A stretch of DNA of 64,000 bases. Source: Parvibaculum lavamentivorans DS-1 (GTDB taxonomy: Bacteria; Pseudomonadota; Alphaproteobacteria; Parvibaculales; Parvibaculaceae). The stretch lies in contig NC_009719.1 of the NCBI RefSeq assembly GCF_000017565.1, forward strand, positions 3,703,001 to 3,767,000. Reading direction: 5' to 3'. The notes beneath the pieces were generated by a model that did not search any database, was not told where the DNA came from, and saw only the letters and a list, made by a program, of their open reading frames with translations. Position numbers and translations under genes: made by a program. Of the stretch, positions 49,710-60,893 are shown piece after piece; the first letter of the stretch is position 1, and each line of letters opens with the position of its first letter.

Positions 49710-50777
49710 ATGGCCAGGAAACTCAAGCCTATTTCCGAGCAGACTATCGTGATTACGGGCGCCAGTTCAGGAATTGGCCTGACGACGGCGCAGCGGGCGG
49801 CGCGAGCCGGTGCAAATGTGGTTCTTGTCTCGCGGAATGAGATGGCACTGAAGAAAATCCGCGATGAAATCCGTTCAGCGGGTGGCAAGGCGGATTTTGT
49901 AGCCGCCGACATGGGCGTGCGCGATGAGGTCAGGAATGTCGTCGATACGGTCGTGGAGCGCCATGGCGGCTTCGATACATGGGTGAACGGTGCCGGCGTC
50001 GGCATCTACGCACGACTGGAGGAAACATCCGACGAGGATCACCAGAAAATTTTCCAGACCAATTACTGGGGTGTCGTCTACGGGTCCCTCGAGGCACTGA
50101 AGCACCTCAAGTACAAGCATGGCGCCCTTATCAATATCGGCTCCATCAGTTCGGACATGCCCGCGCCCATTCTCAGCGCCTACACGGCATCCAAGCATGC
50201 AGTGAAAGGCTTTACCGATTCACTCCGGCTGGAATTGCTGCACGACAAGGCGCCGGTGTCGGTTACCCTGATCAAGCCAAGTGGCATACAGACACCGTTC
50301 GGTGATCATGCCAAGAACTACATGGATGCCGCTTCGCGCGTGCCGCCGCCGGTCTATCATCCAGAAGTCGTGGCGGAGGCCATTCTGCGTGCTGCGACGC
50401 ATCCGATGCGCGACATCACTGTGGGTGGCGCCGGTCTGGCGATGACGATGCTGGCGGGCATTGCGCCTGCTCTCTCGGACAGGCTTTTCGCCTGGTCTTT
50501 TTTCAAGACGGCGCGGGACGAAAAGCAGAAGAAGCATGACGAATCCGCGTTGCATGAGCCGGGAGACGGCGGGAGGAAACTTGGCGAACAGAGCGGCCAC
50601 ATTCGCGAGACCAGCCTTGCCGCGAAAGCGCAAATGCACCCTTTCGCTACTGCGGGACTAACGGCAATCGCTGCTGTTGCGGTGCTCTCGCTGCGCAAGA
50701 GCGGACGTCAGAGATTGGGCAACGCGACGCGAGCCGCTATTCCCACTCGATTATTGATTGGCAGCATAACGCCTTGA
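49710..50777 (+). CDS. Membrane-tethered short-chain dehydrogenase
   Basis: 355 residues from ATG 49710 (AAGGAGG site 6 bases before). TGASSGIGLTTAQRAARAG, NGAGVG and the catalytic YTASK identify an SDR. About 100 residues follow the catalytic core, including LAMTMLAGIAPALSD and a terminal hydrophobic stretch (FATAGLTAIAAVAVLSL), which could anchor it. The substrate is unknown. It is the last gene before the right-hand mobile element. Confidence 0.85.
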   Translation: MARKLKPISEQTIVITGASSGIGLTTAQRAARAGANVVLVSRNEMALKKIRDEIRSAGGKADFVAADMGVRDEVRNVVDTVVERHGGFDTWVNGAGVGIYARLEETSDEDHQKIFQTNYWGVVYGSLEALKHLKYKHGALINIGSISSDMPAPILSAYTASKHAVKGFTDSLRLELLHDKAPVSVTLIKPSGIQTPFGDHAKNYMDAASRVPPPVYHPEVVAEAILRAATHPMRDITVGGAGLAMTMLAGIAPALSDRLFAWSFFKTARDEKQKKHDESALHEPGDGGRKLGEQSGHIRETSLAAKAQMHPFATAGLTAIAAVAVLSLRKSGRQRLGNATRAAIPTRLLIGSITP

Positions 50778-51034
50778 AATATCGTCATTAAAAATATTTC
50801 TTACGGCGATATACCGTCAGCTATCCCGGCAAAATGGCTGGCTTTTGAAATTATTGGATTTTTCCGGGATGCCCCGAAAAACCGTACTTTCGGGATCTAT
50901 CGTCAAGCGAGGAACGCAGGAAACAATCCGACTCGATCCATGCATTCCGCCGATTTCACGATGTAGCTCTATCATCAAAGCGGCTAATTGTCACGCGAGG
51001 CCGGAGCGCAAATGGCTCGCGCATCGTCACCAAG

Positions 51035-52951
51035 TCAGTCGTTTTTCGCGCTGATAGCTTTCCAGCCCCATGTGCTTCGCTTCTTGTCGAAATTGATAAC
51101 GGCTAGGCCTTCCACCCGATCGCCATCGACGACCCTGGATTCTGCAACGATATCCGGCGGAATAAAGATGCCAGCGGAAGTGAAGCCGAGGCCATTACGG
51201 ACTTCGACATCGTCGTTGAAAGGCTTCAGCACATCCGTTCCAGGCGATCGGGTGGTAGAGGAAACCGACAGCGTCCGAGTGCGCGCACCTTTCCGGCTAT
51301 GATAGCGGGTCGCCCGAACCGCGACAGCCTGTCCTATCGTTGCTGAACCGGTAAAGTCGGCCAATGGAAACGTGCCGTCGATTCCCTTAGCCACCACAAA
51401 ATGGAGGAGCGACTTGGCCCGGTTGATGTGATCGATCACGCCGCATAGTTCCGGCACAACGTCATCGCTGGCGCCGTTCCGTGGCTGAATCCGATGCACC
51501 ATCGCCTTCCATGGTTCGGCGGTCGACACCTCCATCTGCACCCTGATCGGAGCGCCCGACCGGCAGCCCCGCACGTCCGGGTGCCCCGCAGAGACGCTGA
51601 TTTCTAAAGGCAGCGGGCTGGCCTTAACGAATATCCGCCGGCGTGTCCGATCCTTCTGCCCTTCCTGCCCCTCGATCACGAATTCGTCGCCGACTAATGC
51701 ATCGGTCCAAGGGAGATGGGCGAAGAGCAACTCCTCGGCGCGCGACTTGAAGCGATCGTAGAACGAACGGCCCGGGGTAGATGGTGCCGCGGCAAGGAAC
51801 CAGGCGCTTTCCGCCATCCGCTGGGCGTCGATGGGAATGCGGGTGCCCTCGCGACGTCTATGTTCGATCACCCGTTCCACTTCGGCTCTCGCCTCACCGG
51901 GATGATCGGCGGCGACCAGGGCCGCGAACTTGAGACGCAGCTTGCTGACGAACGTATCGTCCTCCGAGCAAGTCAGCGCCTTCGCATAGCACGAAAGGCG
52001 CATAACCGGCTCCACCTCGAGGTCGCCGATCAACTCCCAGGTCCAATATTCGCCTGCCTTGCTGCGGGCGAACTCAGTCGCGAGCAGTCGAGCCTCATCT
52101 AGCCGTTCGAGGCCGCGCAGCAACTTTACCATGTTCAACTTCAGCCAGACGTTCTCAGGGAACAGCTCCAGCCCGCGCTCAAGGTAGGGCAGGATATAGT
52201 TCATCTCCGCTGGAGATCCGCCCTTCACAGCTTCCTTGGATGCGCGTTGCAGCACCGTTTCCGCAAGCGGGGGGAAGGTCTTGCCGTCGTCGAGTCGGGA
52301 CTCCTCGAAGTCCTCGCGCCGGAACGAATCCAGACCCCACAAGCGTGCGAATGCGGCGAGGCGGAGATGGTCGCCATGGGACAACCGGACCGCCTGCTGC
52401 ATCATGCAGCTATGTAATAGACCGGACTCCGAGATGCCGAGCTTGAGATAGGTGTTGAGGTGCCGCTTGACGGTATCGATGGCGCTCGGCGCCAAATCCT
52501 GCCCCCCAGCCGCTCGGAAGATCGCCTGGGTGGCCCGGTAGAGCTCCCAGCCGAAAGCAGTCTTGTCGTCCTTGGTCAGACCGCCTTTCGCCATGAGTGC
52601 CGCAAACGCGCCAACGGCCATGTCGTGCTGGCCATCCTTGCCGAGCTTTCGGGCTGCCATGACGGCACGACGATCATCGTCGACCAATGCCAGCGCCCGC
52701 TCTCGGTGTTCGGCGAGAAGCTCATTTCCACTAGGGACCTCAAACTTCGTCAGCAGGCGCAGATAGCCATGCAGCGATGCCTGATCCCGGTCGGCGGCAT
52801 GCCGCTTCACGAGATCGATCAGACACCAGCCGTAGGCGCCGACCTCCCATTCGTTCGCCTCCGGCGCCGCAACCAGTTCCGTGGCGAGTTTGAACGCTTC
52901 ATCGAGTTGGCCGCCCTTGCGCAAGGCCGTGACCTGCTGCCCCGGCTTCAC
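51035..52951 (-). CDS. Helical-repeat protein with C-terminal OB/cold-shock-like domains
   Basis: 638 residues. About the first 400 form helical, TPR-like repeats (QVTALRKGGQLDEAFKLATE, LKLNMVKLLRGLERLDEARL). A linker leads to two beta-rich units: about 503-566 (LCGVIDHINRAKSLLHFVVA, then GIDGTFPLADF) and about 583-634 (IFIPPDIVAESRVVDGDRVE, then WGWKAI). These recall, from memory, the S1/cold-shock domains of so-called TOTE conflict systems. Its start overlaps the helicase stop by 4 bases (ATGA), so the two are translated together. No catalytic site is apparent; a nucleic-acid-binding adaptor for the helicase is inferred. It is the last gene of the operon. Confidence 0.75.
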   Translation of the reverse strand: MKPGQQVTALRKGGQLDEAFKLATELVAAPEANEWEVGAYGWCLIDLVKRHAADRDQASLHGYLRLLTKFEVPSGNELLAEHRERALALVDDDRRAVMAARKLGKDGQHDMAVGAFAALMAKGGLTKDDKTAFGWELYRATQAIFRAAGGQDLAPSAIDTVKRHLNTYLKLGISESGLLHSCMMQQAVRLSHGDHLRLAAFARLWGLDSFRREDFEESRLDDGKTFPPLAETVLQRASKEAVKGGSPAEMNYILPYLERGLELFPENVWLKLNMVKLLRGLERLDEARLLATEFARSKAGEYWTWELIGDLEVEPVMRLSCYAKALTCSEDDTFVSKLRLKFAALVAADHPGEARAEVERVIEHRRREGTRIPIDAQRMAESAWFLAAAPSTPGRSFYDRFKSRAEELLFAHLPWTDALVGDEFVIEGQEGQKDRTRRRIFVKASPLPLEISVSAGHPDVRGCRSGAPIRVQMEVSTAEPWKAMVHRIQPRNGASDDVVPELCGVIDHINRAKSLLHFVVAKGIDGTFPLADFTGSATIGQAVAVRATRYHSRKGARTRTLSVSSTTRSPGTDVLKPFNDDVEVRNGLGFTSAGIFIPPDIVAESRVVDGDRVEGLAVINFDKKRSTWGWKAISAKND

Positions 52952-55722
52952 GGGATGACCTGCGCGGTGAGTATCTCAAGCACCTCGGGCAACAACGTAC
53001 CCGCTGGGACGCCCTGCCTTCCCCCGACGTTGATCGGCATGCATTTCGTGAACCGATCTCGTCCGTCGTAGAAGACATCGACGACGGCAGCATCACCGCC
53101 ACGCGAGAAGGTGTAGCGCTGGCTCCACGCCTGTTCCTTCAATCCCACAATGTGGATTTGGCGTTCCCTGAGAAGAGGCAACAGGCGGTCGTGGAACTGT
53201 GCAAGGAAAGGGCGGCTTGGCGATTGCAGGCCCGACGAGCCACCCGTGCCGGCGACTGGCAGTGCCGAGCCAATGGACTGACCGACCAACGGCCGAAGAA
53301 GCTCGCCTAGCTGCTCGCTGAAAGCGCCTGCGGGAGGAACAGCCACCGCTGTAACCTTGAACTTGCCATTGTAACTGATGTTAGCGCGGGCGGTGTCGAG
53401 GTCACGACGCAGGTAGAAGGCTTCCTGGTACTGGTGATGCGCGACATCGTCGATCTCGATGCCCGTCTCCCCGAGAAGGTCCCGCACGCGCGCCAGAACA
53501 CCGAGGCGGAATGCCTCCTGGGGCGATATGATTGAGGCGGTGCCTCCCGCCTGCGCAGCTGCCGAGAGCTGCCCATCCGTCGATGTCGTCGATACCTCCG
53601 AAGGCGACCACCAGTCAGGTCCGGCGACCTTCAACCTGACTTCGGGCGGGTCGATCATATACAGCTTCCCGCTTGAGCGGGTCATGGCCGTATAGAGCCA
53701 ACGGAAATACTCGGCCGATCTCGGATTCTGGCCAGACGGGCAATTCACGAACACATGCCCCCATTCGCCACCCTGCGCCTTGTGGCAAGTCACCGCGTAG
53801 CCGAACTTTACGCGGAGCGCGTTAAAGTACGGGTCCTGGCGTATGATCTGGCTGAGGCGTTCTCGGTCGTGGCCGCGCTTCAAATCAGGGTGACGCTTGA
53901 GGAAGTCCACATAGAGCGCGCGCTGCTGCGCAGCGTCGAGCCCGGCCCCGCTATCGTGAAGATGATCGTCGAGGATTTTCGCGGTCAGAACGGTCTCGGC
54001 GCCATCTGGCGACGAAACGGTTATCTGGATGTCGCGGAACACTAACGACACCTCGATGACGTCGACTGCCCCGGTCTCCTCGTTACGGTATCGGAGATTG
54101 ACGGACCGCCGCTCCACCATGGTTTCCGCATCGACGACATCGACAAACTCACCGTTAGCCAGGAAGCTGCCGTTCACAACGGCGTTGGCGGTGACGATCA
54201 GCCGATCACCGGCCGCCACGAAGTCACGTCCGGGGAAAAGTGCATCCCGGATCGCCCGGTTGTAACTGGCCGCTTCGCTGTTAGACCGCGTAATGACAAT
54301 CGGAATGTTCGCTTCGCCGGTAGAGCGTGCCGCCATATATAACGGGAGAACCTCGTCGGCGCGGAGACGCAGGACATCTTCGTCGAATTCGAAGCTGAGG
54401 CTACCAAATGTGCCCTTTGAAAGGCTATCGCGAAGCGGCATGACGTTACGGATAATCCCGCTATCCGCCTTCTGCCGCAGTACTTCCTTCAACTCGTATT
54501 CGGCCGCATCCAACCCGAGGTGCTTGTGGAGGTACTCCGTATCAAGCGCTGGGGAGACGGACATCCCCACCGGGGGAAGCTGAGCGGGATCGCCTACGAG
54601 GATAATCTTCCGGTCGGTCTCGCCATGCTTGAATCCGACATAGCTAATCAGGTCGTGCAACAGGTATCCGGTTCCCGATCGGAAGAACTCGCTCTCCGAA
54701 TAGACGTCCGAAAGAAGCGACGCCTCGTCCACGATATAGACCGTATTGGCCTGATCTTGGTTGGCCGCGATCTCCGCATAGAACTTGAACGTCTCCGACC
54801 CAACCTCCTGATCCCCCTTCGTATATTCCTTCAGGTCGCTGAAGTTGTAGATTTGGCTATGCACCGTCCGCGCGTCGCGCCCGGTCTTCTCCGAGATAAT
54901 CTTCGCCGCCCGCCCGGTCGGTGCTGCGAGGCGGAAAGCGCGACCCTGTGCCGAAAGATATTCGGTGATGCCCTTGGCGAGGAAGGTCTTGCCGGTGCCC
55001 GCATAGCCCTTGAGCAGGAATACATGCTGCGTCGGACTGGAGAGGAATGTGGAAAGCGCGTCGAGGCAGGCGGCTTGGTCGCTCGACAGACTTTCCGTAA
55101 AGGCCTCGTGAAGTGTGATGCTGGTCCGAAGTTGGCGCACCCTCGGATCGACTTCCGCCATCGCGCGGGAGACCTGCTCCCGTATGCGCCGGACGCGCTC
55201 CTCGGGAAACTTGAGTATGTTCGATGACTTACCCGGGACCGTCGGCTGCCGCTCGGCAGAAACGTCCTGCGTTTCCACCATGGATGGAACCGAGAGGGGA
55301 TTGGCGTTCTGCCTCGCTGGAGTCAGCCATTCGATGTCGGGACGCATGAAGCGGCAGAACCAGCACGAAAGAGACCAAGCATCTTCCAAAAGAGCTTCAG
55401 CTTGTGCCGGCGTAACCTTCCCGTTGTGTGCGGCATTGTTGCCGACCTTCCGGATAGCGTGAAATTTGGAAAGGAGACGGGCGTCGAGCAGGTCTGCATT
55501 CTCCAACAGGACCAACCTGTCGAAATGCGAATGCGCCGGGTCGTACTGAAGTCCCAGTTGCCCAAACAGTTTGACGACCATCGTCTCGGTAAGCCCACGC
55601 AGCCGGATGGCCACGAGGTCCGGCTCATGCGGTCCAGCCTGTTCCGCCTTTCTCCCGAGATCATGGAGATCTGGCCAGAACCGCTGAAGGAAATTGAAGC
55701 TGTCGGAGTGATCTCCGATCAT
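52948..55722 (-). CDS. DUF4145-RecD-like superfamily 1 helicase
   Basis: 924 residues. The N-terminal domain (about 36-126; RKVGNNAAHNGK) is DUF4145-like, also found at the start of type I restriction HsdR subunits. The helicase core has Walker A 239-246 (GYAGTGKT), PTGRAAK, Walker B YIVDEAS (329-335) and GDPAQLPPVG (378-387). The UvrD_C-like HKAQGGEW (about 647) and YTAMTRSSGKLY (about 677) complete it. This is a RecD2/AAA_30 architecture. About 200 C-terminal residues have no recognised fold. No nuclease motif was seen. It follows the AbiEii gene by 83 bases and is coupled to the OB protein. I infer a defence role from context. Confidence 0.85.
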   Translation of the reverse strand: MIGDHSDSFNFLQRFWPDLHDLGRKAEQAGPHEPDLVAIRLRGLTETMVVKLFGQLGLQYDPAHSHFDRLVLLENADLLDARLLSKFHAIRKVGNNAAHNGKVTPAQAEALLEDAWSLSCWFCRFMRPDIEWLTPARQNANPLSVPSMVETQDVSAERQPTVPGKSSNILKFPEERVRRIREQVSRAMAEVDPRVRQLRTSITLHEAFTESLSSDQAACLDALSTFLSSPTQHVFLLKGYAGTGKTFLAKGITEYLSAQGRAFRLAAPTGRAAKIISEKTGRDARTVHSQIYNFSDLKEYTKGDQEVGSETFKFYAEIAANQDQANTVYIVDEASLLSDVYSESEFFRSGTGYLLHDLISYVGFKHGETDRKIILVGDPAQLPPVGMSVSPALDTEYLHKHLGLDAAEYELKEVLRQKADSGIIRNVMPLRDSLSKGTFGSLSFEFDEDVLRLRADEVLPLYMAARSTGEANIPIVITRSNSEAASYNRAIRDALFPGRDFVAAGDRLIVTANAVVNGSFLANGEFVDVVDAETMVERRSVNLRYRNEETGAVDVIEVSLVFRDIQITVSSPDGAETVLTAKILDDHLHDSGAGLDAAQQRALYVDFLKRHPDLKRGHDRERLSQIIRQDPYFNALRVKFGYAVTCHKAQGGEWGHVFVNCPSGQNPRSAEYFRWLYTAMTRSSGKLYMIDPPEVRLKVAGPDWWSPSEVSTTSTDGQLSAAAQAGGTASIISPQEAFRLGVLARVRDLLGETGIEIDDVAHHQYQEAFYLRRDLDTARANISYNGKFKVTAVAVPPAGAFSEQLGELLRPLVGQSIGSALPVAGTGGSSGLQSPSRPFLAQFHDRLLPLLRERQIHIVGLKEQAWSQRYTFSRGGDAAVVDVFYDGRDRFTKCMPINVGGRQGVPAGTLLPEVLEILTAQVIP

Positions 55723-55772
55723 TTCGCTGCACTCCGAACTACAACGCTCGCCGGAATGTCAGACATACCCAT
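55719..55772 (-). CDS. Possible 17-residue leader peptide before the helicase
   Basis: ATG 55772 (or 55766) opens MGMSDIPASVVVRSAAK and stops as TGA overlapping the helicase ATG (ATGA). It could couple ribosomes from the upstream mRNA to the helicase start. No strong ribosome-binding site precedes it and it may be chance. Confidence 0.3.
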   Translation of the reverse strand: MGMSDIPASVVVRSAAK

Positions 55773-55805
55773 TACCGTCACTACACGCCCCCTCATCGTC
55801 GTTTC

Positions 55806-56822
55806 TTAACTGGCCGCGTTGTTGGCTCGCGCGGCCATCTCGGCGCATCGCGCCATGAGCGCCTCGAACGGTTCTGCGTCATCGAAGAGCAGCCCATCCT
55901 CGACCATGCGGATATAGTCGTCCTTCAGCGCTTTCGCGCCATCGCCGACCGGCACAAGCTGCAAGCCGCCGTTGACGGCCATTGCATAGTCGATCGGCGA
56001 GCGATCAGCGGCTTTCTCCGCAAAGAACATCGACTTATGACGAACGACCGCGTTCGCCAGTTCGCGATCCGCGAAGGCAGCGTCCGCAAGACCGGCTTCA
56101 TCGAGCCGGGCGACATCATGCCAGTGCCGGGCGAAGCGGTCCCCACGCAGCCGGTCCTGGTGGCAGAAGACATGGATGGCGGTCGCCTTCTCCCAGAACG
56201 TCCGCTCGGCGTGCATGACGCGCGGACGTGCTGTCGGAAATATCAGGCCATCGATCAGGCCGGACGCATCGCAGGCAACATCGCGCAAGCTGGCCGGCTC
56301 GCCCGTCGACCGCGCACCGAACTCCAGCATGACACTTGGGGCGACATAGCCCGATCCGGTTGCGGTCGGTTCGTAGTCGATAAAGAGCCGATCACCTTCG
56401 ACGCGGATCGCCGCAGCCAAACCTTCCGTTGCCAGGGCGTCGGAGATCACCGGCTGCACGACAGCGCCAACCCATTCCGGTAGCCGGCGACGAACCTCGC
56501 TGGACCAGCGCTTTTCCTCGCTTCGCGTTTTCGGCAGGCCCTCGCCATTGTCCCCGACCAGGTCGGGCGCGATGGCCCGAATGTCGTAGGTCATATCCAC
56601 ATCCTCCGAAAACCGATGGATGACCTGATAGGCTTTCGACAGCGATGTGCCGCCCTTGAACACCAGATGCTCACCAAGCGGCGCCGTGTAGAGCGTGCTC
56701 AACGCCCACACCACCCAGACGTCCTTTTCGAGCAGATGCGCGGGCCGCCCCGAACGATCCGCCGCGACGCCAAGGGCGTCGCGGCGATCCTGAGCCGAGA
56801 GGAGCAGGAAGGTTTCAGCCAT
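55806..56822 (-). CDS. AbiEii/AbiGii-type nucleotidyltransferase toxin
   Basis: 338 residues from ATG 56822. The polymerase-beta motif is FKGGTSLSKAYQVI (G57-G58-T59-S60) with SEDVD (72-76). RTFWEKATAIHVF in the C-terminal half is the conserved TFWEK of the DUF1814 family. AbiEii transfers nucleotides (GTP in the studied case) or otherwise blocks growth when phage attack. Its start overlaps the antitoxin stop by 8 bases, the standard AbiE arrangement. It is followed by the helicase on the same strand. Confidence 0.9.
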   Translation of the reverse strand: MAETFLLLSAQDRRDALGVAADRSGRPAHLLEKDVWVVWALSTLYTAPLGEHLVFKGGTSLSKAYQVIHRFSEDVDMTYDIRAIAPDLVGDNGEGLPKTRSEEKRWSSEVRRRLPEWVGAVVQPVISDALATEGLAAAIRVEGDRLFIDYEPTATGSGYVAPSVMLEFGARSTGEPASLRDVACDASGLIDGLIFPTARPRVMHAERTFWEKATAIHVFCHQDRLRGDRFARHWHDVARLDEAGLADAAFADRELANAVVRHKSMFFAEKAADRSPIDYAMAVNGGLQLVPVGDGAKALKDDYIRMVEDGLLFDDAEPFEALMARCAEMAARANNAAS

Positions 56823-57408
56823 AGGCCGCCTTCCCGACACTCTGCGCCAACCATGTCGGAAGCTGCGGCGCGGCCGCCACCAATTCGCCAAAGGCGCCGG
56901 GCGGCAGCTTTCGCTTCAATGTCCTGAGCGCAGTTTCGGCTTTCTCCGGGCCGAGCCAAGCCAAGGCCCGGACGGCCTCTCCCGCCGGCCGGTTGGCCAG
57001 AGCCAGTTGCCAGCGCGGGGCATGGCGCAATTCCACGACCTGCTTGCCGAGATTCATCTTCCGGCTGCGCCCGGAGGTCAGATAGACCGAGCGAACCGGC
57101 ACCTGCGTCGTCAGGCCAAGGGCGTTTGCGGCCGCCGCACCGTTCGAGACGATGGTCTCGCCACGCTGGCTGGCAAGGGCTTCCACAGCCTGTTCCACCG
57201 ACGGCGCGCGCGTCCCGAATCGACTGGCGACGGGGCGGAGATAGACACCGCGCCCAGCCCGGATGAGTTGTTCGCGCTCGGCCAGACGCGACAAGGCCTG
57301 GTCCACTGCGGCGCGATTGCCGAGATGGAGCAGCCCCTTAGCGGACACAGAAGCGCCCTCGGGCAAACCCGTCATATGCGACAGAATCTGTTCGGTCAGC
57401 CGTGTCAT
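56815..57408 (-). CDS. AbiEi-type antitoxin (DUF6088)
   Basis: 197 residues from ATG 57408; the longer open frame upstream crosses the promoter. The N-terminal winged helix (LTEQILSHMTGLPEGASVSA, then DQALSRLAEREQLIRAGRGV) binds DNA. The C-terminal part (GAAAANALGLTTQVPVRSVY, VELRHAPRWQLAL) is typical of DUF6088/AbiEi. It neutralises the AbiEii toxin and represses its own promoter; a matching inverted repeat lies just upstream. Confidence 0.88.
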   Translation of the reverse strand: MTRLTEQILSHMTGLPEGASVSAKGLLHLGNRAAVDQALSRLAEREQLIRAGRGVYLRPVASRFGTRAPSVEQAVEALASQRGETIVSNGAAAANALGLTTQVPVRSVYLTSGRSRKMNLGKQVVELRHAPRWQLALANRPAGEAVRALAWLGPEKAETALRTLKRKLPPGAFGELVAAAPQLPTWLAQSVGKAAYG

Positions 57409-57418
57409 CGTCTTTCTC

Positions 57419-57455
57419 CTGTCAGGAACATACGCAGTTTTCTGACAGTTTTCAA
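57419..57455 (-). promoter_or_regulatory. Promoter and inverted-repeat operator of the abiE-helicase operon
   Basis: On the minus strand, TTGAAA (57455-57450) and TATGTT (57432-57427) are 17 bases apart, a good sigma-70 promoter. CTGTCAG (57419-57425) and its exact inverse CTGACAG (57442-57448) straddle the -10 and lie inside the promoter. This is the arrangement known for AbiEi autorepression. Confidence 0.7.
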
Positions 57456-57540
57456 GGAAACACATCCGGGACGGAAAGCTGGGACAAGGGGGAAAGCCTT
57501 CCCCTGCGGTCGAGCCAAAGGGTCTCGCCCGACCCCTTCT

Positions 57541-57556
57541 GCGGGGAGATCCCCGC
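57541..57556. other. Short GC hairpin before the first leader copy
   Basis: GCGGGG-AGAT-CCCCGC forms a perfect 6-base stem. It lies 10 bases before the TAGAGTGAGAG motif of the first leader. It may be a terminator or part of the leader. Confidence 0.4.
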
Positions 57557-57566
57557 AACGCCCCCC

Positions 57567-57648
57567 TAGAGTGAGAGTGCGGACGGGTTTCCCGTGACGG
57601 GTCGAGGGCTGGAGAAGAGGTCTCCGGCGCCCGTCGCGGAGAACCGCG
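57567..57648 (+). promoter_or_regulatory. Conserved leader element, copy A (before ardC-like gene)
   Basis: It opens with TAGAGTGAGAG (57567-57577). An outer stem GTGACGGG (57594-57601)/CCCGTCGC (57630-57637) encloses a perfect inner hairpin GGAGA-AGAGG-TCTCC (57611-57625). GGAG, the likely ribosome-binding site, follows the 3' arm directly and ATG comes at 57649. The same layout recurs at 58689, and a related one at 62061. Confidence 0.65.
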
Positions 57649-58611
57649 ATGTTCAGAAAAAACCACAGCGCCCGCGCCGGCTCAGGCCGGGCGAGCCTCT
57701 ATGACGACATCACCGACAAGATCATCGCCGAGCTTGAGGCGGGCCGTGCTCCCTGGGTCCAGCCATGGGGATCGGCCGCGGCCAAGGCGCCGCTCGCCAT
57801 GCCCCGCAACGCTGCGACCGGACGGCACTATTCCGGCATCAATGTGCTCATCCTCTGGGGGGCGGTGATCCAGCACGGCTTCCCTGGCCAGAGTTGGCTC
57901 ACCTTCCGCCAGGCGCTGTCGCTGGGCAGCAATGTCCGCAAGGGTGAGCATGGCACGACCGTCGTCTATGCCGACCGCTTCACGCCGGAGGACGAGAAGC
58001 GTCGCGCCCGCGAGACCGGCGAAGACGCCGCCGCGATTCCGTTCCTCAAGCGCTTCACCGTCTTCAACGCCGCGCAATGCGACGGCCTGCCGGACAACAT
58101 CGCCGCCATCGCTCCACCGCCGCCGCCTGGCCTCATCGAGCCGCGCGTCGAGGCTCTGATCGAAGCGACGGGCATCGATTTCCGCATCGGCGGCGATCGC
58201 GCCTTCTATGTGTCGGCGCACGACTATGTGCAGGTGCCGCCGCCGCAAGCCTATTTCGAGCCGATCAACTGGCACCGCACGGCCCTGCACGAACTCGGGC
58301 ACGCCAGCGGCCATGCCTCCCGGCTCGGCCGCGATCTGACCGGCGGTTTCGGCACGAAGAAATACGCCTTCGAGGAGTTGGTGGCCGAAATCAACGCCGC
58401 CTTCTGCTGCGCGTCTCTCGGCATCGCGCCGACCGTCCGCCATGCCGACTATATCGGCGCCTGGCTGGAGGTGCTGCGCGAGGACAATCGCGCCATCGTC
58501 CGCGCCGCCTCCCAGGCGAGCAAGGCGGCCGATTGGCTGCTCGGCTTCCTGCCCGACGCCGATCTCGGCCCGGACGACACCATGGCCGGCGACGAACGGC
58601 AGGCGGCGTGA
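57649..58611 (+). CDS. ArdC-like antirestriction protein
   Basis: 320 residues. The N-terminal ssDNA-binding ArdC_N/DUF1738 domain spans about 15-135 (LYDDITDKIIAELEAGRAPW, then GRHYSGINVLILWGA). A zinc-metallopeptidase-like domain carries H214-E-L-G-H218 in HELGHASGH and a downstream Glu in YAFEELVAEINAAFCC. ArdC protects incoming single-stranded DNA from host restriction during conjugation. It is the first plus-strand gene of the element, divergent from the abiE operon and preceded by leader copy A. Confidence 0.92.
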   Translation: MFRKNHSARAGSGRASLYDDITDKIIAELEAGRAPWVQPWGSAAAKAPLAMPRNAATGRHYSGINVLILWGAVIQHGFPGQSWLTFRQALSLGSNVRKGEHGTTVVYADRFTPEDEKRRARETGEDAAAIPFLKRFTVFNAAQCDGLPDNIAAIAPPPPPGLIEPRVEALIEATGIDFRIGGDRAFYVSAHDYVQVPPPQAYFEPINWHRTALHELGHASGHASRLGRDLTGGFGTKKYAFEELVAEINAAFCCASLGIAPTVRHADYIGAWLEVLREDNRAIVRAASQASKAADWLLGFLPDADLGPDDTMAGDERQAA

Positions 58612-58688: not shown

Positions 58689-58772
58689 TAGAGTGAGAGG
58701 GCGGCGCTTCGCTTCGTGACGGGTTGGAGGTCGAGAGAGAGTCTCCTGGCCGCCCGTCGCGGAGTAACGAAC
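58689..58772 (+). promoter_or_regulatory. Conserved leader element, copy B (before parB-like gene)
   Basis: It contains TAGAGTGAGAG (58689-58699), outer stem GTGACGGG (58716-58723)/CCCGTCGC (58753-58760), and inner GGAG (58726)/CTCC (58743) around GGTCGAGAGAGAG (58729-58741). GGAG at 58761-58764 and the ATG at 58773 follow. Both stem arms are identical to copy A while the linking bases differ, which supports a conserved structure. Confidence 0.65.
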
Positions 58773-60893
58773 ATGGCGACTGCCATCCAGAAGATCACCC
58801 TGTCGTCGGCGCGCGACATCCCCTTCAACAAGCTGGCGCTGAGCCAGTCCAACGTCCGACGCGTCAAGGCCGGGGTCTCGATCGAGGAAATGGCCGAGTC
58901 CATCGGCCGGCGCGGCCTCATCCAGAGCCTCCATGTCCGCCCGGTCCTTGATGGTGATGGCGCGGAGACCGGCATGTTCGAGGTGCCGGCCGGCGGCCGC
59001 CGCTATCGCGCACTCGAACTGCTCGTGAAGCAGAAGCGTTTGGCCAAGACGGCGACGGTGCCCTGCGTCATCGGCGACGCCAACAGCGACATCCTCGTCG
59101 ACGAAGTGTCGCTAGTCGAGAACATGGAACGCGCACCACTCCATCCACTCGACCAGTTCCGCGCCTTTCAGGCCATGCGCGACAAGGGCATGACCGAGGA
59201 GGCCATCGCCGCCGCCTTCTTCGTCAACGTCACCGTGGTGAAGCAGCGCCTGCGTCTCACCTCCGTTTCGCCGACCCTGCTCGAAACCTATGCCGATGAC
59301 GGCATGACGCTCGAACAGCTCATGGCCTTCACCGTCAGCCCCGACCATGCCCGTCAGGAGCAGGTCTGGGACGCGATCAAGGATAGCTGGCAGAAGGAGC
59401 CCTACCAGATCCGGCGGATGCTGACCGAGACCGCGGTTCGCGCCTCGGACAAGCGGGCCAATTTCGTCGGTGTCGATGCCTACGAGGCCGCAGGCGGCAT
59501 CGTACTGCGCGATCTCTTCCAGTCCGACGACGGCGGTTGGCTGCAAGACCCCGTCCTGCTCGACCGTATGGTGGCGGAGAAGCTGAAAGCCACCGCCGAT
59601 CAGATCGCCGAGGAAGGCTGGAAGTGGATCGAGGTCGCGGTGAGCTTCCCCTATGGCCACGACCACGGCCTGCGTGAACTCGCCGGCGTTGCGGTCGATC
59701 TGACCGACGAGGAGCGTGCGACCCGCGAAGCGCTGCGCGAGGAATATGACCGGATCGAAGCGGAATATTCCGAGGCCGACGAGCTGCCCGACGCGATCGA
59801 TCAACGTCTCGGCGAGATCGAGCAGGCCCTGGAGGCCTTCGAGAACCGCCCCGTCAGCTACGATCAGGCCGACATCGCAATCGCCGGCGCCTTCGTCAGC
59901 CTCGACGCCGACGGTTCGCTGTCGATCGACCGCGGTTATGTCCGCGCCAAGGATGAGCCCCAGGCCGAGCCCGATGGCGAGGCGTCCGGGGGCGACCAGC
60001 CCGATACGCCGGCCGTCCAACGCGCGGTCATCACCATCGGTGGCCAGCCCGCCGAGCCCGAGGACGATGAGGAAGACGGCATCAAGCCGTTGCCCGAGCG
60101 TCTCGTGATCGAGTTGACCGCCCATCGCACCCTGGCGCTGCGCAACGCGCTGGCGGAACATCCGCACGTCGCCATGACCATGTTGCTGCACAAGCTTCTG
60201 AGCGACACCTTCATCCACACCAACCCGTCCGGTTGCCTCGAGGCCAATGTCCGCCACATCTTCTTCTCGGCCCAGTCCGAGGAATTGAAGGACAGCCCAT
60301 CGGCGCAGGCGGTCAACGATCGCCACGAACGCTGGGGGGATCACATCCCCGCTGACAATGAGGCGCTCTGGGACTGGCTGACCGATCTCGATGACGGCAC
60401 GCGCCTGGAACTTCTGGCGCTTTGCGTCAGCTACGGCGTCAATGCGCTATTCGAGCGTCCGAACCCCTATTCCGGCTCGGGCGTCAGCCAGCATGGCCTC
60501 GATATGCGTCTGGCGCAGGCCGACCGGCTCGCACGGGCTACGGGCATGGACATGGTGGCCGCAGGCTGGAAGCCCACTGTCGGCAATTATCTCGGCCGCG
60601 TGACCAAGCCCCGCATTCTCGAAGCCGTGCGTGAAGGTGCCGGAGAGCGGGCCGCGCAGCTCATCGACCACATGAAGAAGGGCGACATGGCCAAGGAAGC
60701 CGAGCGCCTTCTGGCCGACAGCGGCTGGCTGCCCGAGCCGCTGCGCCTCGCGTCCATCGATGGCGATCAGTCTGGTCCCGACGATCAGGCCGATAACGGC
60801 GAAGACACCGCCTTGCCGGACTTCCTCACCGAGGACGGCGAGGACGAAGACACCGACGAGGATGAAGTCCAGCACGCCGTCGCCGCCGAATAG
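58773..60893 (+). CDS. Large ParB/RepB-family protein
   Basis: 706 residues from ATG 58773. The ParB N-terminal CTPase/nuclease-like domain spans about 15-110: IPFNKLALSQSNVRRVKAGV, GLIQSLHVRPVL, VPAGGRRYRALELLV and SLVENMERAPLHP (the GxxR and ENxxR motifs). A helix-turn-helix follows (MTEEAIAAAFFVNVTVVKQR). The remaining ~500 residues are acidic and helical and of unknown role. Such oversized ParB-like proteins are typical of conjugative plasmids and ICEs of alphaproteobacteria. No parA partner is adjacent. It may act in partition or as a transcription factor rather than as a classical ParB. Confidence 0.88.
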   Translation: MATAIQKITLSSARDIPFNKLALSQSNVRRVKAGVSIEEMAESIGRRGLIQSLHVRPVLDGDGAETGMFEVPAGGRRYRALELLVKQKRLAKTATVPCVIGDANSDILVDEVSLVENMERAPLHPLDQFRAFQAMRDKGMTEEAIAAAFFVNVTVVKQRLRLTSVSPTLLETYADDGMTLEQLMAFTVSPDHARQEQVWDAIKDSWQKEPYQIRRMLTETAVRASDKRANFVGVDAYEAAGGIVLRDLFQSDDGGWLQDPVLLDRMVAEKLKATADQIAEEGWKWIEVAVSFPYGHDHGLRELAGVAVDLTDEERATREALREEYDRIEAEYSEADELPDAIDQRLGEIEQALEAFENRPVSYDQADIAIAGAFVSLDADGSLSIDRGYVRAKDEPQAEPDGEASGGDQPDTPAVQRAVITIGGQPAEPEDDEEDGIKPLPERLVIELTAHRTLALRNALAEHPHVAMTMLLHKLLSDTFIHTNPSGCLEANVRHIFFSAQSEELKDSPSAQAVNDRHERWGDHIPADNEALWDWLTDLDDGTRLELLALCVSYGVNALFERPNPYSGSGVSQHGLDMRLAQADRLARATGMDMVAAGWKPTVGNYLGRVTKPRILEAVREGAGERAAQLIDHMKKGDMAKEAERLLADSGWLPEPLRLASIDGDQSGPDDQADNGEDTALPDFLTEDGEDEDTDEDEVQHAVAAE

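Follow-up and report, generated by a model that had tools for sequence, protein, structure and literature searches.

In the 64,000-nt stretch of the Parvibaculum lavamentivorans DS-1 genome analysed here (NC_009719.1; referred to below as the window), four minus-strand genes at positions 51035–57408 form a nearly contiguous block, in which an AbiE toxin-antitoxin pair is followed by a helicase gene and the gene of its OB-domain partner. The first gene (56815..57408) encodes an AbiEi-type antitoxin and repressor (DUF6088; 92 bits with Pfam, 224 bits with the PADLOC AbiEi model) and overlaps by 8 nt the gene of the AbiEii nucleotidyltransferase toxin (55806..56822; PF08843 at 1.3e-37 and 130 bits; PADLOC AbiEii, 327 bits), for which no sequence match in PDB was obtained at E 1. 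After a junction of 83 nt (55723..55805), in which homology with other AbiE loci ends, the helicase gene follows (52948..55722), overlapping by 4 nt the gene of the partner (51035..52951), which starts with GTG. A preliminary description of the locus had given the same spacing and the same identities for the AbiE proteins, the helicase and the OB partner, and both were borne out by our coordinates and by Pfam and PADLOC.

The helicase, a RecD/Pif1-like enzyme of superfamily 1, carries DUF4145, AAA_30, UvrD_C_2 and, in two stretches, TBP-TOTE repeats (PF22721, 6.7e-38). Its N-terminus resembles HsdR of type I restriction systems (PRK11448, 1.3e-19), in agreement with the link between DUF4145 and HsdR that had been suggested, and among solved structures it is nearest by sequence to RecD-type and related helicases. 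In the partner, DUF7017 and two S1/CSD (OB) domains (the S1CSD-TOTE families PF22708 and PF22707) scored above cut-off, and TPR_19 remained below it (21.4 bits, cut-off 25); no nuclease domain was recognised by Pfam in either protein. PADLOC matched the two proteins over nearly their full length as PDC-M16A (1215 bits) and PDC-M16B (865 bits). Judged by these matches, the pair belongs to an already known type of predicted conflict system, TOTE (for TPR, OB, TBP, Effector, as expanded in an excerpt of PMC12458937, citing Aravind, Iyer et al. 2022), alias the PADLOC candidate PDC-M16. The idea of an undescribed helicase system is therefore rejected, and the preliminary description, which knew of no described system of this composition, went too far as regards the helicase pair.

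A single recognisable promoter stands at the head of the four genes (57416..57455, minus strand), as had been anticipated, together with an operator-like inverted repeat and a ribosome site. Its -35 box TTGAAA (57455–57450) is separated by 17 nt from the -10 box TATGTT (57432–57427), around which the 7-nt arms CTGTCAG (57448–57442) and CTGACAG (57425–57419) are placed, and it is the sole minus-strand sigma-70-like site found in a scan of 50700–57800. A terminator or a strong separate promoter in the junction, which the preliminary description had regarded as evidence against the operon, was not seen, the scan giving no terminator-like or promoter-like site in 55723–55805. Each of the 36 aligned AbiE loci has a recognisable -35 box, arms around the -10 box and a ribosome site, with one arm or the other deviating in some rows; the sequence upstream of the -35 box differs between locus groups, relatives within a group, such as conjugative elements, sharing some of it.

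The abiE head and the cargo behind it

AbiEii relatives were collected from 24 of 387 genomes of the class (at 1e-30) and from 23 of 344 genomes of a second family (at 1e-90), and 14 and 18 places, respectively, were taken as regions, with weaker, truncated or broken places left aside and L087 and L088 dropped as duplicates (loci and genomes are cited by their working numbers, L and G). Heads were positioned by tblastn, and gaps were measured from the starts of the longest open reading frames (ORFs); with annotated starts instead, the gap is 129 nt in L103 and 15 nt in L105. A DNA search with 50742–57700 returned AbiE blocks, 82–84% identical, in Niveispirillum, Haematobacter and Novosphingobium; these blocks end at window position 55801, at the abiEii stop, and are followed 23 nt behind abiEii by genes for SIR2, HerA and a DEDDh exonuclease. 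SIR2-HerA lies behind abiEii again in L091. Gabija GajA and GajB follow on the same strand in L139, L140 and L147 (PDLC00070), a second Gabija type in L136 and L092 (PDLC00096), GajA of a third type (PDLC00063), meeting the contig end, in L137, and Hachiman HamA and HamB in L105 and L144. Other heads are followed by PDC-S32 and then an AbiJ_NTD3 protein (L090), by DUF4238 and then Dsr1 (L055), by a UvrD-type helicase of 640 aa (L107), by a methyltransferase between a 443-aa and a 703-aa protein (L145), or by an AAA_21 protein and a UvrD helicase (L103), the last resembling Gabija in make-up, with no match to the Gabija tblastn queries. The first gene of intact defence cargo is co-directional with abiE and begins between a 4-nt overlap and an 83-nt gap.

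Behind some heads only parts of such genes were found: a PDC-S32 remnant in L142 (70% over 165 aa, from +7), a GajB remnant in L146 (86% over 125 aa, from +60), a SIR2 remnant in L135 (78% over 92 aa, from +197) and a fragment like PD-T7-1 in L141. In L147 it is the AbiEii frame that ends early, with full-length Gabija behind it. No intact recognised cargo was present in L101, L102, L138, L104, L131, L143, L089, L106, L142, L146 and L141, in L132–L135, which bear insertion sequences (IS), or behind the broken heads of L056, L095 and L096; a 336-aa ORF behind AbiEii in Tistrella (L104) was rejected as an artefact of an annotated LysR gene on the other strand. Among viral contigs we found 10 AbiEii relatives (49–60% identity), none of which has any of the sought cargo directly behind it, one having 341 nt there; two of the 10 are followed by a co-directional ORF of no recognised kind.

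The boundaries of the head are narrow. In loci without ardC the head alignment starts within a few bases of the -35 hexamer, and its end falls anywhere from 162 nt short of the abiEii stop to 5 nt past it, the exceptions being L056 and L147, whose frames are shifted. A sister element, L131, shares 95–96% identity with the window across parB, ardC and abiE, as far as 26 nt short of the abiEii stop; it continues with 4.65 kb of other DNA containing opposite-strand genes like ACR3, arsH and, by eye only, arsC, and matches the window again at 92% identity for the last 236 bp, up to the same attachment site. By this alignment L131 and the window differ by a clean swap of cargo. The best matches of a 400-aa ORF in the L131 slot reach at most 47%, two of them on stretches annotated as chrA, and no same-strand ORF longer than 54 aa starts within 40 nt of the abiEii stop in L131.

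Heads and cargo can also be told apart by their divergence. L054 and L091 have AbiEii proteins that are 75% identical, as against 92% for SIR2 and 95% for HerA, and their DNA identity rises from 62–82% before the abiEii stop to mostly 86–96% behind it. The SIR2 proteins of SIR2-HerA operons are 92–99% identical although the AbiE heads do not form one clade: in a tree of 33 AbiEii proteins L091 stands apart from the other SIR2-HerA heads, and a topology holding the four together was rejected (p-AU 1.85e-5). We read the AbiE lineage present here as a portable head whose conserved part begins at the -35 box and runs to the abiEii stop or close to it, and in this role it looks new.

A separate observation concerns HerA. 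Between L053 and L091, about 2.0–2.9 kb behind abiEii, the middle of HerA is only 40–64% identical in DNA flanked by sequence of about 80–93% identity, a dip absent between L054 and L091, and this looks like an exchange of a specificity region inside HerA.

Frequency of defence cargo and control lineages

For counting, 23 focal loci were defined as the window plus those genome-sampled places that showed no visible break and whose AbiEii was 70% identical or more. G580, assigned by an AbiEi identity of 85%, was counted as focal without cargo and moved out of the control; in G318 the contig end cuts off the AbiEii start, in G878 less than 0.5 kb lies behind abiEii, and G1049 (L145), with a PADLOC hit in the second gene only, was scored negative. 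The broken heads of G898 (L147, Gabija behind) and G839 (L146, GajB remnant) are outside the 23. Ten loci were scored positive, either by PADLOC (L052, L090, L136, L137, L140 and the window) or by tblastn matches of 91–100% (L091, L092, L139, L144) to PADLOC-positive cargo or to the Hachiman pair of L105. As control served 40 AbiEii loci of other lineages, drawn from a longer match list and reduced to 37 by removal of G580 and of two loci with less than 1.5 kb behind; PADLOC was run on the 6 control loci whose first ORF lies on the same strand, begins no more than 100 nt away and encodes 200 aa or more, and tblastn with the cargo set on all 40.

Defence genes lie directly behind abiEii in 10 of 23 focal loci and in 2 of 37 control loci (p 0.0006), or 1 of 37 (p 0.0001). 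With near relatives merged (taken as one were the second place in G1088, and G1020, G878 and G1097, which have IS-type genes or a disrupted SIR2) the count becomes 10/20 against 2/37 (p 0.0002). A co-directional first ORF encoding 200 aa or more and starting no further than 100 nt away was present in 11 of 23 focal and 6 of 38 control loci (p 0.009; 38 being the number before G580 was moved). The tblastn tally (19/32 focal loci downstream, 0/31 focal loci upstream, 3/40 control loci; L016–L018, L056, L133 and L134 left out) is partly circular, the cargo queries having come from these same loci, and its independent part consists of the remnants and the matches across loci.

In the control, L193 has a Mrr_cat protein, HamA and HamB behind AbiEii, and L209 a defence match of a weaker call; L213 has an RmrA-like gene at +1.2 kb, and L211 a helicase match of 23% at +1.7 kb. 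With only L193 and the weaker L209 among 40 loci of other lineages, defence cargo as a property of AbiE in general was rejected; behind the distant AbiE of L097–L099 (about 40% identity) the genes are on the opposite strand. L209 (C1:1995686-2006540) belongs to the same genome as the window and holds a third, different AbiE. Roughly at its stop codon begins the gene of a 1312-aa protein (weak AAA_16), and next comes that of a protein of 1346 aa whose N-terminus is PDC-M68A-like; the locus may be a further defence operon headed by AbiE.

The TOTE pair outside the locus and the host element

TBP-TOTE proteins are sparse, occurring in 2/98, 6/387 and 5/397 genomes (overlapping samples, the Parvibaculum genome being counted in each), and the TOTE helicase was found at 1e-30 in 74 of 72,556 plasmid records, including 24 of Klebsiella and 23 of Escherichia. 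All 14 TOTE loci outside the element described below are without this AbiE (tblastn at 1e-4; L049 offers only 3 kb, and a very distant AbiE could escape). The 4-nt overlap of helicase and partner genes is kept in L034–L038 (as annotated), L046, L050 and L051; the pair is looser in L047, with a gap of 202 nt, and in L048, with the partner further away and a short helicase frame, and in L019 no partner was recognised. AbiE stands before TOTE only in near-identical elements of Brevundimonas nasdae (L016), Nitrospirillum amazonense (L017) and Asaia bogorensis (L018), which are 96–99% identical in DNA to the window and reach the same end at 50738–50741; among the loci examined, no TOTE pair was found behind AbiE outside this element type, the nearest thing being the 23% helicase match behind control L211. 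On these comparisons TOTE shows no sign of needing AbiE. A phage origin of the pair was likewise rejected: the partner, the sole query, matched 1 of 50,697 phage records, with 25% identity over 40% of its length. Two observations on the pair stand by themselves. In three genomes of one family (L044, L045 and L046) the TOTE helicase gene is immediately preceded by a same-strand gene of 433–434 aa, which is perhaps a third TOTE component, and the plasmid L038 (NZ_CP026578.2) has the TOTE helicase about 7 kb from tet(A).

The four genes lie at the edge of a 61,265-bp block that occurs twice in the genome (3.9 Mb, a single contig), at C1:3753742-3815006 (starting at window position 50742 and running past the end of the window) and at C1:1302562-1363826, with one mismatch near the far end. 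The stretch 51035–57408 is thus present in two copies of 100% identity, which had gone unnoticed in the preliminary description. At the far end of the block is a tyrosine integrase, adjoined by a BREX set (BrxC, PglX, BrxHI, PglZ and BrxA, at positions 94139–109997 counted from the window; L009, L010, L013), with which two unrecognised proteins of 620 and 629 aa are interspersed; the conjugation genes comprise a relaxase-type gene (DUF3363) and genes of the TraG, VirB4/TrbE and TrbI types. Because an integrase, a relaxase, a coupling protein, mating-pair genes and attachment ends are all present, the block is, by gene content, an integrative conjugative element, whose two ends carry BREX and AbiE-TOTE, respectively. 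One of the copies terminates within the final codons of guaA; the copy in the window is inserted at a different site, in the 3' end of a gene that resembles one for a short-chain dehydrogenase. TOTE is placed between the abiEii stop and the terminus of the element (50742..51034, with the attachment site at 50742), a terminus shared with L131 and L016–L018. On the other side of abiE, on the plus strand, lie the backbone genes of the element: an ArdC-type gene (57649..58611, by Pfam), the divergent neighbour to which the preliminary description had rightly pointed, and a ParB-type gene (58716..60893, by Pfam). The ArdC gene is kept beside AbiE in L052–L054, L131–L135, L143, L017 and L018.

Interpretation and comparison with known systems

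We propose that TOTE/PDC-M16 is a self-contained, two-gene candidate defence system which here probably occupies a position of exchangeable cargo behind a constant AbiE head and is read from the AbiEi-repressed abiE promoter. The constant head would be the abiE cassette, comprising its own promoter, the operator, the antitoxin-repressor and the toxin, and the slot for cargo would extend from the abiEii stop to the end of the element. Cargo would most likely lack a promoter of its own and be transcribed from the abiE promoter, giving one AbiEi-controlled transcript for antitoxin, toxin and then the defence system. Keeping in mind the conserved operator, the lack of a terminator or promoter match in the 83-nt gap and the cargo nearly touching abiEii in many loci, we consider a single transcript the simplest model. 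The level of cargo would then rise once AbiEi is lost or titrated, and TOTE, though regulated otherwise elsewhere, would here be subject to AbiEi. As to its presumed anti-phage action, the TBP-like and S1/OB domains probably recognise nucleic acid, which the RecD/Pif1-like helicase would remodel. More tentatively, the head may serve as a portable unit of control and addiction, in which AbiEi represses one promoter for the toxin and whichever defence operon lies behind, an infection depleting AbiEi releases both the growth-arrest toxin and the specific defence, and loss of the cassette is punished; we regard this extension as possible, though doubtful.

Several observations weigh against the proposal. 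In 13 of the 23 focal loci the DNA directly behind abiEii contains no defence gene that is both recognised and intact, and the position also receives IS-type genes (L132–L134), an opposite-strand integrase (L143) and arsenic genes (L131). The 10 cargo states on 20 rows of the tree need 11 changes, the minimum being 9; cargo is therefore mostly inherited with the head and exchanged occasionally. The promoter scan performed at chance level, with 2 sites on both strands against 1.7 expected from shuffles; we nevertheless take the abiE promoter to be more than chance because the same stretch is recognisable in 36 of 36 loci while sequence beyond the -35 box diverges. PADLOC hits were obtained in 3 of 10 hand-chosen upstream focal genes, two of them divergent, the same ten loci having a recognised defence gene first behind abiEii in 7 of 10 cases, and Shedu is annotated upstream in L107. 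Part of the effect is therefore the general clustering of defence islands.

Among other explanations, the DNA behind abiEii could be a passive landing site, an edge of the element where insertions merely do no harm, with cargo that expresses itself and AbiE irrelevant to it. The non-defence DNA just mentioned and the occurrence of TOTE elsewhere without AbiE in front are in keeping with this, but intact defence cargo is co-directional and nearly touches abiEii, and a close first ORF is rare in other AbiE lineages, so that we consider the explanation rather unlikely. Still less probable is that AbiE only stabilises the element and adjoining DNA by addiction, with no control over cargo expression. 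AbiE and SezAT do stabilise an integrative conjugative element in Streptococcus suis, with AbiEi acting at oriT, according to excerpts of PMC11062541; addiction by itself, however, leaves the co-directional, nearly overlapping cargo unexplained, and in L147 a full-length Gabija stands behind a shortened AbiEii frame. That AbiE, helicase and OB protein are mutually dependent parts of one compound defence system, as the preliminary description had suggested and as the short junction, the one promoter and the recurrence of the same four genes in L016–L018 might indicate, is very improbable, and an obligate compound is rejected, given that none of the 14 outside TOTE loci has this AbiE, many loci combine the same head with other cargo, and the sister element L131 is without TOTE. 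The preliminary description had itself named the occurrence of the pair elsewhere without such a link as evidence against its view, and this is largely what is seen. What survives of the suggested link to defence is broader than the helicase pair: directly behind abiE of this lineage some defence operon or other is often found.

Returning to exchangeable cargo behind a constant AbiE head, the proposal bears on the activation of defence systems, and on the means by which mobile elements replace one such system by another with expression intact, both largely open questions. The same head with different cargo (Gabija, Hachiman, SIR2-HerA, TOTE) offers a natural series that can be tested, and the DNA behind this abiEii stop may be a cheap source of new defence genes, with the 443-aa and 703-aa proteins around the methyltransferase of L145 and the 640-aa UvrD-type protein of L107 as candidates.

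Much of what is assembled here is already known, namely TOTE/PDC-M16, AbiE, AbiE on integrative conjugative elements, AbiE in defence islands (in Streptococcus thermophilus, according to excerpts of PMC11514479) and shared repressors of defence genes such as BrxR. The pair in the window shares with TOTE/PDC-M16 all named domains, the order of a helicase-TBP gene and a TPR-S1/OB gene, and the 4-nt overlap, and differs in standing behind an AbiE head and in that the effector is apparently the helicase itself. According to excerpts of PMC3985639, AbiE is a type IV toxin-antitoxin system whose AbiEi in Streptococcus agalactiae binds inverted repeats at its own promoter and represses it, AbiEii being a predicted nucleotidyltransferase; the bicistronic order, a promoter lying no more than about 60 bp from the start, and the inverted repeats recur here, whereas here the repeat is shorter (7-nt arms) and a further operon lies directly behind the bicistronic unit. 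AbiE on ICESa2603-type elements is likewise carried on an integrative conjugative element, which it stabilises, and the excerpts of PMC11062541 describe no slot of exchangeable cargo behind abiEii. The BrxR/WYL repressors, as presented in excerpts of PMC9122601, also bind inverted repeats and co-localise with diverse defence systems, but BrxR is not a member of a toxin-antitoxin pair, whereas here the repressor would be the antitoxin. Full-text searches of the open-access PMC literature returned nothing that we recognised as concerning defence systems carried behind AbiE or toxin-antitoxin cassettes heading exchangeable defence operons. Set against these systems, it is the arrangement that looks new, in which an AbiE lineage forms the constant head of exchangeable defence operons.

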